Positions 14,704 to 21,954 of a stretch of 59,530 bases of DNA are shown here, piece after piece. The DNA comes from Armatimonadota bacterium. GTDB taxonomy: Bacteria; Armatimonadota; Zipacnadia; UBA1398; JAKPQA01. Numbering within the stretch: position 1 is the stretch's first letter; each line of letters begins with the position of its first letter. Position numbers and translations under genes: made by a program. The notes under the pieces are model-generated. The model did not search any database and had not been told where the DNA came from. It saw only the letters and a program-made list of their open reading frames with translations. Location: positions 1 to 59,530 of the forward strand of contig JAKPQA010000094.1 of the NCBI GenBank assembly GCA_029547025.1, written 5' to 3'.

Positions 14704-15699
14704 ATGGACACCGGAGCCCGCACCCCTGCGACCTGCCCCGAGTGTGGCTACCTCGTGGAGCCGCAGGACCGGCACTGCGCCTACTGCGGGCGGCCGGTGC
14801 CTGCCTGCGTCGAGGCCGATGCCACGCTCCCCGCCCCCACCCCACCACCCCTTCCCGCGCCGGCCCCGGGCGCGGAACCCCGCCCGGCGGGCCAGTCCCG
14901 CGGCCACGGCAGGAGCGTGACGGCCGGTGCCGCTGCGGTCGCGGCACTCAAGGGGGGCAAGGTCCTGGTCGGGGCGTCGAAGTCCGGAGCTCTGCTCAAG
15001 ATCGTGCCCGTGCTGCTCAAGACGGGCGGCTCCATGGCGCTGTCGCTCGGGTTCTATGCACCGATGTTCGGTCTCTGGTTCGCCGTCGGGCTCCTAGGGC
15101 TTCTCCTGGTTCACGAGCTGGGCCACGCCCTGGTGCTGCGCGCCCTGGGGGTCCCGTTCAGCGCCCCGCTGTTCATCCCATTCATGGGCGCCGTCATCGG
15201 GATGAAGGAGCTGCCTCGAGACGCGACCAAGGAGGCCGCCACCGCCTTCGGTGGCCCGGTCCTGGGCACCATCGGCGCTGCCGTGTGCCTGGTCATCTAC
15301 CAGGTCACCGGGCACGACCTCATGCTGGGCCTCGCCACGTGGGGCTTCTTCCTGAACCTGTTCAACCTGATCCCGTTCACGCCCATGGACGGCGGCCGCA
15401 TTATCGGCGCGGTCTCGCCCAAGATCTGGCTGGTCGTGCTGCCGGCCCTCCTCGTCCTCGCCCTGCTCCGTGGCTCGCCCCTGCTCGTACTCGTCGCGTT
15501 CATGGGGATCCCGCGAGCCATCGCCGGCTGGCGGACCCCGCCGGAGCTGCAGGACTACTTCCGCGTGCCGCCGCGCGTGCGGATCCTGTGCCTCATCGGG
15601 TACGTGGCGCTGGCGCTGGCGTTGGCGGCGCTGTTCTTCCACTGTGTGGCCCTCGCCTACGCCGAGGTCCATCCGCACGTCGGGGGCTGGGAAGCCTAG
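14704..15699 (+). CDS. zinc-ribbon site-2 protease (M50 family) membrane protein
   Basis: This 331-residue protein has an N-terminal zinc ribbon (CPECGYLVEPQDRHCAYCGRP), a Pro-rich linker, and a multi-pass membrane domain. The M50 zinc motif is HELGH (His137, Glu138, His141) and the second motif is PMDGG (Asp229), so the active site is intact. Such intramembrane metalloproteases cleave membrane-bound regulators. The zinc ribbon may bind substrate or nucleic acid. The start is the ATG at 14704; the ribosome binding site is weak. The last bases (CTAG) serve as stop codons for both this gene and the convergent transglutaminase gene. Confidence 0.85.
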   Translation: MDTGARTPATCPECGYLVEPQDRHCAYCGRPVPACVEADATLPAPTPPPLPAPAPGAEPRPAGQSRGHGRSVTAGAAAVAALKGGKVLVGASKSGALLKIVPVLLKTGGSMALSLGFYAPMFGLWFAVGLLGLLLVHELGHALVLRALGVPFSAPLFIPFMGAVIGMKELPRDATKEAATAFGGPVLGTIGAAVCLVIYQVTGHDLMLGLATWGFFLNLFNLIPFTPMDGGRIIGAVSPKIWLVVLPALLVLALLRGSPLLVLVAFMGIPRAIAGWRTPPELQDYFRVPPRVRILCLIGYVALALALAALFFHCVALAYAEVHPHVGGWEA

Positions 15700-17840
15700 G
15701 AGCCCCACAGCCGGACCAACGCCCGCCTCAGCCGGACCGCAACAGGCGGGGGCGGCGCCGCTTGCCGAAGCTGCGTGACGACCGCGGCCAGACGCGCCGA
15801 TAGGCGTCTGAGCTCCTGGCCATCAGGTGGGATCGGGCCGTACAGGTGAGCCGTAAGGGCCTCGAAGAGGCCGTGGGCCTCCCGGGCTACATTGTCGGAG
15901 ATACCGGCCAGGGGGGCCCGGACCAGCTCCCAGTACTCACCCGATGCCGTCGACGAGTGCCGCGGGACCCCCACGGCAGAGCCCACTGCGGAGCACAGGC
16001 AGTCGTAGAGCGCGGCAGCCGCTCCACGCGGATCGCCGGACCCGCGCCTCCGCCGACGGCCAAGGAGCCGCCTCGCGGACCGAGACGAGTACAGCAGCAC
16101 CCACAGAGAGGGCAGCACGAACAGCAGCGTGACCAGCCGGAGTCGTGCCCAGTTCGCGAGACCCCGGACCAGACGGCGCGTACTCTCCGCCACCTGCGCC
16201 AGCCGGTTCGCTCCCGCCGCCCGGTCGGCCACCGGGTCGAACGTGACCCAGCCGACTCCGTCAAAGTTGACCTCAACCCATGCATGGGCATGATCCGACC
16301 GGATCGCATACGTGCCCGAGTCGCCCCTCCGCTCGCCCGAGTTGTAGCCGCCGGCCAGCCGGGCGGGAATCCCCACACTCCGGCACATCAGGGCCAGCGC
16401 CGACGCGAACTCCGCGCACGTGCCCTCCCTGCGCTCGAACAGGAACTGCTCCACTGCATCCTTGCTCCCGTCATAGCGCGGCGCAGCCAGGTTGTAGACG
16501 CATGTGGCCTCAATGTGCCGTTGGAGGGCCGCCACCCGGTCGTACAGCGTCGTGGCGCCTCGAATGAGCTCCTGGGCCAGCTCGCGAATGCGGGCCGAGT
16601 CGGGGGCGGTCACATACGCCTGGCTCGTGACCCGCCCCGGCCGCTCGACGCGGCGCAGCAAGGCGGGGTCCGTCGTGTTCACACGGGAGACCCCCGTGAT
16701 GCGCGATCCCGGTGGGATGGCCTGAGGCGAGTAGGCGCACCCGTTCTCGCTAATGCGAATCTCGGCCACATCCGATGACACCCGCTCGGGCACGGCGGGA
16801 ACGGGGATGTAGCCCGACATCGCCGACTCCGGCACGATGGTGTACGAAACCTCCTCCTCGCCATCCTCGAAGCGCGACTCACCACGCGCCGCGTGCGCGG
16901 TCGCCCCGGGCTCAGGCATCGGCCCCTCAAACGACGGGTCCTCCTGCCAGCCGTTTCCCGTGTAGTTCGCGTAGACCCGGCTTCGCCACAATAACGGACG
17001 ATCGCACTCGACCGTCATCACGGGAGTGCGCTCGTTGCGAATCGGGCCCACGCCCAGGGCGAGCTGCGGCCGATGGCCCGCATACGAGAACAGCTCCGGC
17101 GCGTTCTCCACCGTCTTGGACAACTGGTGGATCGGCCATGCGAAGGGCGACCGCAACCCAAAGGTGAGCACCGTGCCCACGGCATAGCCACTCAGCGCCA
17201 GCACGACGAACACCGCCGCGGCCGCATAGGACTGATCGCCCACGACACGTCGTAACCCGCCCGCGGCCGTCAGGGCGCTCAGCCGGCCGCGCCGGAGAAG
17301 GTTGTCATACCCCAGGAAGAACAGGCTGCAGTAGACGAACGCCAGGAAGCAGGCCATGGCCTCCACGTTCACGTTCAGCTCGCCCACCAGGCCCAGCGCG
17401 CTCAGCCCAAACACGAACATGAACAGAACCACAGGACGGTACGCGGAGGCGAAGCTCAGCGCCAGCAGGCCCGTCAGTACCCGGACACACAGGACCAGAT
17501 CGGCGTCAACAACGACATCGGCCGAGAACAGCACCGAGTGAATGGCCGGAGTCTGCATGGCAACCAGAACCACGCCGACCGGCACGGCCGACGCCAGAGC
17601 CCGACTGCCATCCGCGATGGGCGCCCGCACCAGCACGTAACCCCAGACGACTCCGGCAGTCACCAGCGCCAACACCAGGGGCGCGAACCCCGGGCTGGCA
17701 GCCGTCGACGCCACGCCCAGTGCCACACACCACATGGCGGCCAACGCACTCGCGTACCAGGGCAGCAGGAATGTGCGCGATGCCCGCCATGCGTCGGCCT
17801 GGACGGCGAGCTGGTCGGCCGCTCGAGCTGAGCTAGCCAT
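15696..17840 (-). CDS. TgpA-like membrane transglutaminase
   Basis: This 714-residue protein has an N-terminal block of five to six membrane helices (TgpA N-terminal/DUF3488 type). A periplasmic transglutaminase-like domain follows, with catalytic Cys475 in EGTCAEFASAL, His in DHAHAWVEV and Asp in GWVTFDPVAD. A membrane helix (LVTLLFVLPSLWVLL) and a cytoplasmic DUF4129-like tail complete it. In Pseudomonas TgpA is essential and sits in the same MoxR-DUF58-TgpA arrangement. It is the last gene of a minus-strand operon and overlaps the DUF58 gene by 8 bases. Its 3' end shares CTAG with the convergent protease gene. A role in envelope assembly is inferred from context. Confidence 0.85.
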   Translation of the reverse strand: MASSARAADQLAVQADAWRASRTFLLPWYASALAAMWCVALGVASTAASPGFAPLVLALVTAGVVWGYVLVRAPIADGSRALASAVPVGVVLVAMQTPAIHSVLFSADVVVDADLVLCVRVLTGLLALSFASAYRPVVLFMFVFGLSALGLVGELNVNVEAMACFLAFVYCSLFFLGYDNLLRRGRLSALTAAGGLRRVVGDQSYAAAAVFVVLALSGYAVGTVLTFGLRSPFAWPIHQLSKTVENAPELFSYAGHRPQLALGVGPIRNERTPVMTVECDRPLLWRSRVYANYTGNGWQEDPSFEGPMPEPGATAHAARGESRFEDGEEEVSYTIVPESAMSGYIPVPAVPERVSSDVAEIRISENGCAYSPQAIPPGSRITGVSRVNTTDPALLRRVERPGRVTSQAYVTAPDSARIRELAQELIRGATTLYDRVAALQRHIEATCVYNLAAPRYDGSKDAVEQFLFERREGTCAEFASALALMCRSVGIPARLAGGYNSGERRGDSGTYAIRSDHAHAWVEVNFDGVGWVTFDPVADRAAGANRLAQVAESTRRLVRGLANWARLRLVTLLFVLPSLWVLLYSSRSARRLLGRRRRRGSGDPRGAAAALYDCLCSAVGSAVGVPRHSSTASGEYWELVRAPLAGISDNVAREAHGLFEALTAHLYGPIPPDGQELRRLSARLAAVVTQLRQAAPPPPVAVRLRRALVRLWGS

Positions 17841-19287
17841 TCAGGAGCGCCTCCAGCTGCGGCCCCAGCGGCGCGCCGCAGTCGACGGTCACGATGCGAG
17901 CCGCGCTCCGATTCAGCGCCTCCAGGAGCCCGAGCCCCTCGGGCTCGACCGAACCCCCGCGCTCCGACCGAGTGGCTCTCCGCCTCAGCCGCTCCCACAG
18001 CGGCGGCGGCTTCCCCACGCCATCAGCGCCGTCCGCGGCCGGAACCAGGAGCACCACGGTCGCCTCCAGGCCCGCCGCCAGCAGGCAGAGCGCCGCTCGA
18101 GCCGCCGCAGGCCCGCAGTCCGAGGTGAACACGAACACCGAGGCCCCGCGGTCGACTCGGCGCGCCACCTGGGCACACACCTGATCGATGGGCGACTCGC
18201 CCCGGCCCTCGAGCCGGGCCAGGGCCTCGAACACCCGATGGGCGCTCATCGAGCCGGCGGGGATGGATACCCCATGGTTCATCGAGTCCACGGCCACCAG
18301 TTCGAAGGGTGAGTGCCAGCCGCACGCCAGCGCCGCCAGTGATGCCGCCGCCCGAGCCGCGCAGTCCAGCGTGCTGGAGCCCCGGGGGCCGATGTTGGTC
18401 CCCGCACCACAGTCCACAATGGCCACCATGCCCCTGGATGGCAGATCCTCGAACTCGATCACCGACAGGTTCCCCGTGCGCGCCGTTGTCGGCCAGTGGA
18501 TCCGTCTGGGCTCATCGCCAGACCGGTACTCGCGGATCCCGTGGAAATCCACACTCTCCCCGGCCCGCGTGCGGCTCGGGGCCCCAACATCCCCCAGCGG
18601 GTTCCGCCCCACCGACGCCCAACGGCCCAGGCTGTAGACGGCCGGGTACACCACCAACTCAAGCCCGAAGCCCGTGAGGACCCGCGAGAACTCGAACACG
18701 CCCAGCAGGTCGGTGGTCTCCAGTTCCGCCTCGTCAACCCGATAGACGCCCCGGGCCAGCGTGTGGAAGGTAACCTCGATCTCGCGCGTCTCGGCGCCCA
18801 GCAGCGTTCCCAGTTCGCCATCCTCGGCCTCCGCCATCAGGCCCTCAGGTAGCCGGAAGCCAAAACTACAGAAGCACCGAGGCAACCGGCCCCGATTGGT
18901 GAGACCGACGCCGATGTGCGCCACCTGGTACTCGTGGAGCGTTCCGCGAGGGGCGCAAGTCACTCGAGCTTCCACGCTATCGAGTGACCGCAGACTCAGC
19001 AGACACGTCATCGGCAAGAGCAAACCGATGACACCCGCCGTGACGAAGATCTGCTGCGAGTGGTAGACCGTCCCCACGACGAAGAGCATGAGACTTGCCG
19101 CTCCCGCAGCCCACATCACCAGGCCACCATGGGGCGTGACGCGCTTCAGACCCCCGCGCCGCCCGCCCAGCCCTCCGCCGGCACCGAGAAACGGAACCCG
19201 CCGCACCCACGCGGCACCCTCCAGTTCGGCGCCGACCGGCGCCCGCGCGTCCACCGGATCCACCGACTCTCTCGCCGTGTCGGCCAA
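17833..19287 (-). CDS. DUF58 domain protein (VWA-like) of the MoxR cluster
   Basis: This 484-residue protein has two N-terminal membrane helices. It carries the DUF58 signature ESVDFHGIREYRSGDEPRRI followed by HW, and a VWA-like C-terminal half (VAIVDCGAGTN ... FVFTSDCG). Family members work with MoxR AAA+ ATPases, probably as metal-ion-dependent adhesion-type partners. The gene starts 10 bases after the MoxR stop and overlaps the transglutaminase gene by 8 bases. The N-terminal 50 residues before the first helix are unusually long and Gly/Arg-rich, so the true start may lie nearer 19130. Confidence 0.85.
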   Translation of the reverse strand: MADTARESVDPVDARAPVGAELEGAAWVRRVPFLGAGGGLGGRRGGLKRVTPHGGLVMWAAGAASLMLFVVGTVYHSQQIFVTAGVIGLLLPMTCLLSLRSLDSVEARVTCAPRGTLHEYQVAHIGVGLTNRGRLPRCFCSFGFRLPEGLMAEAEDGELGTLLGAETREIEVTFHTLARGVYRVDEAELETTDLLGVFEFSRVLTGFGLELVVYPAVYSLGRWASVGRNPLGDVGAPSRTRAGESVDFHGIREYRSGDEPRRIHWPTTARTGNLSVIEFEDLPSRGMVAIVDCGAGTNIGPRGSSTLDCAARAAASLAALACGWHSPFELVAVDSMNHGVSIPAGSMSAHRVFEALARLEGRGESPIDQVCAQVARRVDRGASVFVFTSDCGPAAARAALCLLAAGLEATVVLLVPAADGADGVGKPPPLWERLRRRATRSERGGSVEPEGLGLLEALNRSAARIVTVDCGAPLGPQLEALLNG

Positions 19288-19297
19288 CTCGTTCGCC

Positions 19298-20266
19298 TCA
19301 GCTCGCCGCCGCGAGAGGCACGGGAACCTGCTCCAGTGCCTCGATCACCACGTGCTCCGGAGTGACGCCCTGCACCGCCAGCTGAGGGTCCACCGAGATC
19401 CGGTGACACAGCACCATGGGGGCGATACGCTTGACGTCATCGGGCGTCACGAACGACCGGCCATCCAGCAGGGCCAGCGCCCTCGACGCCTTGAACAGAC
19501 CCAGTGAGCCGCGCGGGGACGCCCCCAGCAGCGACCGGGGGTTCTTCCGTGTCGCCTCGACCAACGACACCATGTAGTCCTTGACCGACGGCTCCACATG
19601 CACCTCCTGGGCCACCGCGCGGATCATCTGAATGTCCTCCACCGTCGCCACCGCGTTCACGTGGGCGATCGGATGCCCCCGGGTCTGACGCGACAGCACC
19701 TCGATCTCGTCATCGTGGCTGGGATACCCCATGCCAATCCGCAGCAGGAAACGGTCCATCTGTGTCTCGGGGAGCGGGAACGTGCCCCGGAACTCGATAG
19801 GGTTCGCCGTGGCCATCACAAAGAACGGCGATGGCAGATCGTAGGTCACACCATCGACCGTGACCTGCGACTCCTCCATTCCCTCCAGGAGACTCGCCTG
19901 CGACTTGGGCGTCGCCCGGTTGATCTCGTCGGCCAACACGATGTTCGCGAAGATCGGCCCGGGCCGGAACACGAACTCGTGGGTGCTCTGGTTGTAGAGG
20001 TTGCTGCCCGTGATGTCCGATGGAAGCAGGTCTGGGGCGAACTGAATGCGGCGGAAGGTCCCGCCAATCGCGCGGGACATCGCCCGTGCCAGCATGGTCT
20101 TGCCGACCCCGGGGATGTCCTCCAGCAGCACGTGCCCGCCGGCGATGAGCCCCACGAGAACCTGCCGGACGGCATGGGGTTTGCCGACGATTACCGTCTC
20201 CACCTCGTGGAGAATCCGCTCCGCTTTGGCACTCGCACTGCGTATCTGGCCCTCGTCCAAGACCAT
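19298..20266 (-). CDS. MoxR-family AAA+ ATPase
   Basis: This 322-residue protein has Walker A DIPGVGKTMLARA and Walker B NIVLADEINR. MoxR signatures include PSDITGSN, FRPGPIFANIVLADEINRA, MATANPIEFRGTFPLPE and LGASPRGSLGLFKASRA. MoxR ATPases act as chaperone-like remodelers for partners encoded beside them, here the DUF58 and transglutaminase proteins. The frame is open to 20401, but homology begins at MVLDEGQ, so I placed the start at the ATG at 20266. It lies 5 bases after the stop of the upstream ComEC-like gene. A GAGGGG sequence abuts this ATG, so initiation at a TTG two codons later is possible. Confidence 0.92.
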   Translation of the reverse strand: MVLDEGQIRSASAKAERILHEVETVIVGKPHAVRQVLVGLIAGGHVLLEDIPGVGKTMLARAMSRAIGGTFRRIQFAPDLLPSDITGSNLYNQSTHEFVFRPGPIFANIVLADEINRATPKSQASLLEGMEESQVTVDGVTYDLPSPFFVMATANPIEFRGTFPLPETQMDRFLLRIGMGYPSHDDEIEVLSRQTRGHPIAHVNAVATVEDIQMIRAVAQEVHVEPSVKDYMVSLVEATRKNPRSLLGASPRGSLGLFKASRALALLDGRSFVTPDDVKRIAPMVLCHRISVDPQLAVQGVTPEHVVIEALEQVPVPLAAAS

Positions 20267-20271
20267 CCCCC

Positions 20272-21165
20272 TCAGCGGCGGCGCCGGAAGCCATGGACCG
20301 CGACGGTCCCGTTCCGGAGCCGCACGGTGATCGCGCCGTCCGTGTCCGTCATCCACACGTCCACACCCGAGGCGAGCAGATCCTCGATGACGTCCCGCCA
20401 TTGCTTGGCCGTGCTCGTGCCCGCCCGGGATACCACCGCCACGCGCGGACCCACGGACTCCAGCAGTTCCGTCGGGTTCGCCCAGGTCTGGCCCTGGGCC
20501 GGTACCTTCAGGACGTCCGCACGGGGCGGTGGGCTGCCCCTGAGTACTCGGATGCCGGCCGACGTCACCGAGTTGAGGATCTCCGCCGATGCCCGCCCGT
20601 GCATCACCCGCACCCCGACCATTGTAGACGTCCGGTCCACCCTCCAGGTGCGAAGCCGAATCTCAGCCCCGCCACCCAAGTGGATGACCTGCCCATCAGC
20701 CAGAACTCCGATCGGTGTCCGTGTGGCACGGCAGAGCAGTGCGACGATGCGGCCATGGGGTGTGGCCCGCAGGTCAGCGGGGGCAAGAACCAGGCCGACC
20801 GGCATCTCGCGCAGCACGCTGGGGATTCCGCCCACATCCCGGGCCCGTGAACCCGTGAGGATCACCGCATCCAGCCGCTTGATGCCGCTCTCCATGAAGT
20901 GGGACAGCAGCGCTCGCGACCGGGACCCGCCCTGGTCAGCGCCGCCGCCGTCAATCAGAACCGCTCGCCGGCCGGCCACCCGAACGACGAGTGCATCGGC
21001 ATCGCCCACCGCCAGAGCGCAGATCTCGGCGCCCCGGGGCCAGGACTGCCAGAGCCCGACCGCGCACGCGGCGCACGCGACCAGCAGCAGTGCCAGTACA
21101 TACGGCCCCAGATTGGTCTCGGGCGCCTCGATGTCATCGGACGCCTCGGCCGGACGGAATGGCAT
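20272..21165 (-). CDS. degenerate ComEC C-terminal-like (metallo-beta-lactamase fold) membrane protein
   Basis: This protein of about 297 residues has one N-terminal membrane helix (YVLALLLVACAACAVGLW) and a region that follows the ComEC C-terminal beta-lactamase domain in order. VGDADALVV stands where VGQGDA is usual, VLIDGGG is kept, and LTGSRARDVGGI stands where SHxxxDHxGG binds metal. LKVPAQGQT replaces LKVGHHGS, and VWMTDTDGAITV matches the usual end. All metal-binding His residues are lost, so hydrolysis is unlikely. It heads the MoxR-DUF58-TgpA operon and is divergent from lexA. The start is the ATG at 21165 or the ATG three codons upstream (21174). It may be a ligand-binding or structural pseudoenzyme. 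Confidence 0.7.
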   Translation of the reverse strand: MPFRPAEASDDIEAPETNLGPYVLALLLVACAACAVGLWQSWPRGAEICALAVGDADALVVRVAGRRAVLIDGGGADQGGSRSRALLSHFMESGIKRLDAVILTGSRARDVGGIPSVLREMPVGLVLAPADLRATPHGRIVALLCRATRTPIGVLADGQVIHLGGGAEIRLRTWRVDRTSTMVGVRVMHGRASAEILNSVTSAGIRVLRGSPPPRADVLKVPAQGQTWANPTELLESVGPRVAVVSRAGTSTAKQWRDVIEDLLASGVDVWMTDTDGAITVRLRNGTVAVHGFRRRR

Positions 21166-21170
21166 AGTGA

Positions 21171-21188
21171 GCATATCCTAGAATATGC
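21171..21188. promoter_or_regulatory. palindrome GCATAT-N6-ATATGC between divergent genes
   Basis: Six-base inverted arms flank CCTAGA and overlap the 5' end of the ComEC-like gene. It is AT-rich against a GC-rich background and sits in the lexA divergent promoter region. It could be an operator or the core promoter of the leftward operon. Confidence 0.4.
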
Positions 21189-21193
21189 GGTGG

Positions 21194-21233
21194 ATTGCCG
21201 CAATGACGGCAAGAAACATCTGTTTGCATGCAA
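21194..21233. promoter_or_regulatory. candidate LexA operators (two TTGC...GCAA inverted repeats)
   Basis: ATTGC-C-GCAAT (21194-21204) and TTGCATGCAA (21224-21233) are two inverted repeats with the same TTGC/GCAA half-sites, about 30 bases apart and upstream of lexA. LexA usually represses its own gene from sites overlapping the promoter, and the second repeat overlaps the presumed -35 region. This motif is not one of the well-known LexA boxes, so the assignment is an inference from position and symmetry. Confidence 0.4.
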
Positions 21234-21251
21234 GCTTCCGTTTGGTATGAT
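21224..21251 (+). promoter_or_regulatory. candidate lexA promoter
   Basis: TATGAT (21246-21251) matches the -10 consensus at five of six positions. It lies 16 bases after a weak -35, TTGCAT (21224-21229). It is 85 bases ahead of the lexA start. Confidence 0.45.
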
Positions 21252-21336
21252 GAAAGTGCGACAACGACCCAGCCAGACCCGGCCCGGCATCCCTGAACCC
21301 ACCACGGGACGTCCCGCCTGGGAGGAGGCATGTGCT

Positions 21337-21954
21337 GTGGGATCATTGACCCGCCGCCAGGAAAGCGTGCTCCAGGCCATCCGAGACCACATCCGGCAAG
21401 AGGGCTACCCCCCGACCGTGCGTGAGATCGGTGAGCGCCTCGGCCTCAGCTCCAGCTGTACCGTCCAGAAGCATCTCGAGGCCCTCATCCGCAAGGGTAT
21501 CATCCGCCGTGACGGCAGCAAGTCACGGACCATCGAGATCGTCGGCGAGCCCGCCCCCCCGCCCCCGATGTCACCCGACGTGGTCTTCGTGCCCCTGGTC
21601 GGCCGTGTGGCGGCGGGCCAGCCCATGACGGCCGTCGAGTACATCGAAGGCTACCTGCCCATCCCTCAGGCGCTGGTGCGGGGCGATGACGTCTTCATGC
21701 TCCGGGTCCACGGCGACAGTATGATCAACGCTGGAATCTACGATGGCGACCTCGTAGTGGTCCGCAGGCAGAACACGGCCGACAATGGCGACATGGTGGT
21801 GGCCATGACCGCCGACGGCGATGCCACCGTCAAGTACTTCCACCGTGAGAACGGCCACTTCCGCCTCCAACCGGCCAACGACGCCATGGAGCCCCTCATC
21901 GTCCCGGACGTTGAGATACTCGGCAAGGCCATTCTCGCCATCCGTCGGCTGTAG
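21337..21954 (+). CDS. lexA: LexA repressor (SOS regulator, self-cleaving)
   Basis: This 205-residue protein has the usual LexA length. The N-terminal winged helix (LTRRQESVLQAIRDHI ... GYPPTVREIGERLGLSS) binds DNA. The autocleavage site Ala93-Gly94 is in GRVAAGQP, with catalytic Ser128 in HGDSMI and Lys166 in DATVKYF. RecA-stimulated cleavage would lift repression of DNA repair genes. The frame is open to 20899. I chose the GTG at 21337 because GGAGGAGG (21321-21328) lies 8 bases upstream and the protein then begins as in other LexA proteins. An ATG at 21329 is in another frame. The GlcF-like gene follows after 53 bases and may be cotranscribed. Confidence 0.95.
   Translation: MGSLTRRQESVLQAIRDHIRQEGYPPTVREIGERLGLSSSCTVQKHLEALIRKGIIRRDGSKSRTIEIVGEPAPPPPMSPDVVFVPLVGRVAAGQPMTAVEYIEGYLPIPQALVRGDDVFMLRVHGDSMINAGIYDGDLVVVRRQNTADNGDMVVAMTADGDATVKYFHRENGHFRLQPANDAMEPLIVPDVEILGKAILAIRRL

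Follow-up and report, generated by a model that had tools for sequence, protein, structure and literature searches.

The C-terminal domain (CTD) of ComEC is a Mn-dependent nuclease which lies outside the membrane, and efficient transformation of Bacillus needs it (PMC8579336). In ComEC of S. pneumoniae this domain is retained and apparently inactive (PMC5031224). The nuclease domain is reported to be missing in almost half of ComEC proteins, with the removal of the non-transforming strand in these proteins being an open question (PMC8579336). For MoxR-DUF58-transglutaminase genes, the bifidobacterial PFNA cluster is a described case, in which the gene of an FN3 surface-binding protein is located directly before MoxR (PMC8430577). 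A literature search of partial coverage found no papers on split ComEC.

A detached ComEC CTD, called MBL here, was identified at the head of a MoxR-DUF58-TgpA operon in the window, i.e., the whole stretch of 59,530 nucleotides that was analysed. The following features were recognized:

20272..21174, minus strand: MBL, 300 aa, detached ComEC C-terminal domain (TM helix and beta-lactamase-like fold) with its metal site lost
21043..21111, minus strand: TM helix of MBL, residues 22-44, corresponding to the last TM helix in full-length ComEC
20836..20853, minus strand: former motif II (HPxxDH in relatives), residues 108-113, here G-S-R-A-R-D
20569..20571, minus strand: former metal-bridging Asp of motif IV, here Ser202
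20491..20499, minus strand: former HHG of motif V, residues 226-228, here A-Q-G
20332..20349, minus strand: C-terminal TDxxGA motif, residues 276-281, retained and taken as structural
19298..20266, minus strand: MoxR-type AAA+ ATPase (AAA_3 and AAA_lid_2 by Pfam)
17833..19287, minus strand: DUF58 protein (by Pfam)
15696..17840, minus strand: TgpA-type transglutaminase (TgpA_N and Transglut_core by Pfam)
21336..21954, plus strand: LexA-type repressor, divergent from the operon, start codon approximate

Compared with ComEC (TIGR00361), the protein was alike in fold, in the order of elements and in the preceding last TM helix (E = 1e-13 to 1e-15), but it is encoded by a separate gene, the Competence domain is on another contig and every metal ligand was lost. 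Like the CTD of S. pneumoniae ComEC, it is a dead nuclease domain retained as a fold; however, the S. pneumoniae domain is fused to the channel and has some of the ligands, whereas MBL is detached and has none. The three downstream genes and their order were those of MoxR-DUF58-transglutaminase clusters, including PFNA with its surface-binding gene before MoxR, but these clusters are without a ComEC-type domain as far as examined.

The best explanation, to which a probability of roughly 0.6 is given, is that MBL is a relocated ComEC pseudo-nuclease, a metal-dead, non-catalytic and membrane-anchored domain which derived from fission and now stands in the moxR operon. By gene fission, the last TM helix and the nuclease domain, which form the C-terminal half of ComEC, would have been split from the DUF4131 and Competence half. 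All metal ligands would then have been lost, and the gene would have ended up with lexA on one side and the moxR-DUF58-tgpA operon on the other. Its product might serve there in binding or as a scaffold, anchored in the membrane and without catalysis.

Residues 49-285 of MBL matched the PDB ComEC chains 30bt (E = 1e-15) and 9ic4 (E = 1e-13), and the protein matched TIGR00361 ComEC_Rec2 (E = 4e-10) at model positions 441-635 of 663, which bears out the claim of an earlier note on this DNA that the ComEC beta-lactamase domain is followed from end to end. The gene end at 20272 given there was right, but the start at 21165 was codon 4, with the ATG at 21174. Pfam Lactamase_B gave no match, as expected because the motifs were absent from the domain. 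The AlphaFold2 model, with homologues supplied as an alignment, was confident, with a pLDDT of 88 and a pTM of 0.84, and the structural comparison with ComEC CTDs that had been suggested in the note supported the fold, with the beta-lactamase-like domain of ComEC (9ic4) as the top Foldseek match (E = 3e-19, TM 0.85 by target). By its whole-domain similarity and its MBL-type alpha-beta/beta-alpha fold, which was nearest to that of ComEC CTDs, the protein belongs with these domains.

Five ligands (H108, D112, H113, D202 and H226) were invariant in 24/24 aligned relatives, and were replaced by G, R, D, S and A in the window. Position 110, which is D, H or Q in relatives, was changed into R, N183 of motif III into S, and H227, kept in 23 of the 24 relatives, into Q, so that all eight metal-ligand positions (HxDxDH, motif III N, motif IV D and motif V HH) were substituted. 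A moved metal site was considered and rejected, with no substitute ligand set at the homologous positions in the alignment. Meanwhile G57, D75, G228, P243 and S249, all invariant in the 24 relatives, were present in MBL. At 90% conservation among the stand-alone relatives, MBL retained 14/24 of the non-metal columns and 0/5 of the metal columns (Fisher p = 0.04). The pseudoenzyme described in the earlier note, which had lost its metal-binding residues, is thereby confirmed, both by the fold kept without replacement ligands and by conservation of the former metal-site positions in relatives; its motif comparison was correct in substance and one residue off, the first motif-II His aligning with Gly108. 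Since the metal ligands were all lost, MBL should not cut DNA.

The catalytic residues being all gone, the long branch in the tree (2.94, with a median of 0.71, and the window domain not firmly placed) and the occurrence in one genome only would also fit a decaying remnant, an open frame without function which is disappearing. This is improbable, for the 300 codons were intact without a stop, codon bias by local usage was strong in frame (+76.9 bits, with +10 or less in the five other frames), invariant structural columns were retained while the metal ligands were gone, and the gene was placed for translational coupling in the operon. MBL is an intact fold that is still coding, with a GC1/2/3 (0.73/0.55/0.81) similar to that of the adjoining genes.

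The other half of ComEC was found elsewhere in the same genome (G000). Its sole Competence-domain protein was 556 aa in length, composed of DUF4131 and Competence without a beta-lactamase domain, and its gene adjoined a pth-like gene on contig C115, with MBL on the separate contig C179. No second ComEC-type CTD was revealed in this genome by a CTD profile search, the next matches (E ~ 2e-4) being taken as ordinary MBLs. In this genome no single chain carried DUF4131, Competence and MBL together, and no CTD cistron lay beside the core cistron; one core and one CTD gene, as a split pair, jointly covered full-length ComEC. The best match of both was the full-length ComEC of class member G004, at residues 121-480 for the core and 528-788 for MBL of 794, and in the alignment they met without overlap at the inter-domain junction of ComEC, where ...VALWYVAVVVGHELVHNDRCRR closes the core, apart from an unmatched tail, and GPYVLALLLVACAACAVGLW... 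opens MBL.

ComEC frames in the class were nearly all about 680-1060 aa, and those of this order were short, with 562 aa in G000, 577 aa in G001 and 525 aa in G002. A 536-aa ComEC frame with an adjoining separate 318-aa MBL frame was present in G025, and further short matches in the class (G031, G021, G024 and G030) were contig-edge or partial. A complete short core without an adjacent MBL gene was found within the class in this order only. In a search of GTDB contigs for close relatives of MBL, the only match was a distant one, to a full-length ComEC-type protein from a member of the Bacillota. Judged from these sequences, origin from the genome's own ComEC is likeliest as against descent from a stand-alone copy, short of proof because the trees place neither piece firmly; in the core tree this held for the cores of the window genome and of G001 and G002. 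As the missing half of the genome's own ComEC, MBL would have its origin explained without a MoxR connection.

An artefact of binning or assembly, by which one of the two genes, MBL or the core, would come from another organism, might be suspected in an assembly of 369 contigs and 4.8% contamination. It is very improbable, in that lexA and moxR of the same contig resembled those of G001, with 54% and 62% identity, and were divergent as they are there, core and MBL had one best relative in common, and the codon use of MBL matched the adjoining genes.

Detached ComEC domains were not confined to this genome. Many ComEC-type CTDs in frames of about 280-370 aa were observed in a survey of 291 genomes of the phylum, and 47 stand-alone loci were looked at. 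A ComEC core gene preceded the MBL gene at short distance and in the same orientation in 26/47 (L115, L117 and L167-L206), with core and MBL frames mostly overlapping or nearly touching (about 950 bases apart in L176), and the remaining loci had no core in the stretch fetched. The metal site was intact in most stand-alone MBLs. Those of the phylum such as G050, G052 and G053 resembled MBL in length (about 290-330 aa), in the N-terminal TM helix and in standing apart from the core, but most of them keep the full HxDxDH...D...HH and many are directly behind the core gene.

Some stand-alone copies were metal-dead. G057b, G076 and G077 shared YYExNGRF, G050b had SDVRDDNS, and G275b was partly degraded. 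Like MBL, the second copies of f22 (G057, G076 and G077) and of G050 are detached ComEC CTDs without a metal site, but they carry other replacement residues and are not near MoxR where examined. Because such copies exist, catalysis was probably lost more than once in freed ComEC domains, and the replacement residues, YYExNGRF and SDVRDDNS being different from those of the window, suggest that the losses were probably independent. The YYExNGRF dead-site MBL was a second and unlinked copy in three genera of family f22 (L120:6774-7658, L210:1989-2930 and L219:2041-3135). Unlinked second MBL copies beside a PilB-like ATPase gene were seen at L121, L177, L185, L208, L209, L219 and L220; three of the PilB-like neighbours had T2SSE and MshEN by Pfam, and the others were recognized by sequence likeness. 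In G001, two ComEC-like MBL ORFs (L114:5026-7828) were beside helicase-like and methylase-like genes, in an arrangement that resembles a defence island.

For the use of MBL, two partners could be considered. The dead domain might serve the ComEC core in trans as a non-catalytic cap, guiding DNA or propping the channel mouth, with the MoxR neighbourhood being accidental. The core is retained in the genome, many loci of the phylum carry split pairs in which the MBL cistron follows on the core, S. pneumoniae ComEC, for whose apparently inactive CTD such a function has been suggested, is a precedent (PMC5031224, PMC8579336), and several second MBL copies elsewhere adjoin a pilB-type ATPase gene. 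However, MBL was unlinked to the core, and no ComEA-type protein was found in the order, where HHH_3 searches of G000, G001 and G002 gave none and DprA was present; the HHH_3 matches of G000 were Tex-like and GspK-like proteins. Class member G004 had a ComEA-sized frame of 201 aa beside ComEC. An EndA-type nuclease (PF01223), as a substitute, was absent in G000, G001, G002 and G004. Moreover G001 and G002 of the same order retained the core with no such CTD, so the core can persist without it. The tail ahead of the TM helix of MBL had a net charge of -4, unlike the 44 stand-alone relatives with 0 to +8. Service to the core in trans is thus rather unlikely, and ranks as the next likeliest use.

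The other partner is encoded directly downstream. Only 5 bases separated the MBL stop from the ATG of MoxR, with the RBS (GAGGGGG) spanning the MBL stop, MoxR and DUF58 were 10 bases apart and DUF58 and TgpA overlapped by 8 bases, just as the close packing of the cluster had been described before. MBL is probably co-translated with MoxR. Upstream of it, about 160 bases (21175-21335 of the window) form a divergent intergenic region common to lexA and the MBL-moxR operon, which may be under SOS control; no LexA box was established in this region when it was inspected by eye.

The linkage was not found again in other genomes. In G001 of the same order lexA and moxR were directly divergent with nothing between, and MBL occupies exactly that spot in the window; the G002 contig breaks off within the MoxR gene and does not show its upstream side. 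Other genes were located before MoxR in four further MoxR-DUF58-TgpA operons of the class, and of the 47 other loci in the phylum with a stand-alone ComEC-type MBL, none had MoxR, DUF58 or TgpA within the stretch fetched. An MBL gene at the lexA-moxR position was thus found in one genome only, with no repeated co-occurrence with MoxR, and the MBL-MoxR link is recent or private. What had been called a tie to MoxR held for the spacing, but it was not conserved in the genomes examined.

A sensor or client adaptor specifically for MoxR, as the earlier note had proposed, would suit the five-base spacing with the RBS over the stop codon, and likewise the PFNA cluster has an extracellular binding protein (FN3) before MoxR-DUF58-transglutaminase (PMC8430577). 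It is nevertheless unlikely, as MBL was beside MoxR in no other genome examined, and with ComEC topology the domain would be outside the membrane and MoxR inside. Given the N-tail charge of -4, the membrane orientation of MBL could differ from that of ComEC, and the domain could then be cytoplasmic, like MoxR. Still less probable than the adaptor is a subunit of the MoxR-DUF58-transglutaminase system, perhaps inserted in the membrane the other way round.

The relocated pseudo-nuclease probably serves as a binding domain which is anchored in the membrane and non-catalytic. The likeliest use, put forward tentatively, would be that of an accessory to the envelope system of MoxR, DUF58 and TgpA, similar to FN3 in PFNA (PMC8430577), and it is favoured over service to the ComEC core because of the place in the operon. 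A role with MoxR is possible on the basis of one genome. With no ComEA-type protein found, DNA uptake may be reduced in this order, and the domain would then be available for other purposes.

In this phylum the nuclease domain of ComEC is often a separate gene and is not lost, and surveys of the Competence domain only would miss such domains. MBL of the window would be one end of this path, on which a free nuclease domain retained the fold, gave up the chemistry and moved into another operon. MBL would be a natural test of what the beta-lactamase fold of ComEC does besides cutting.
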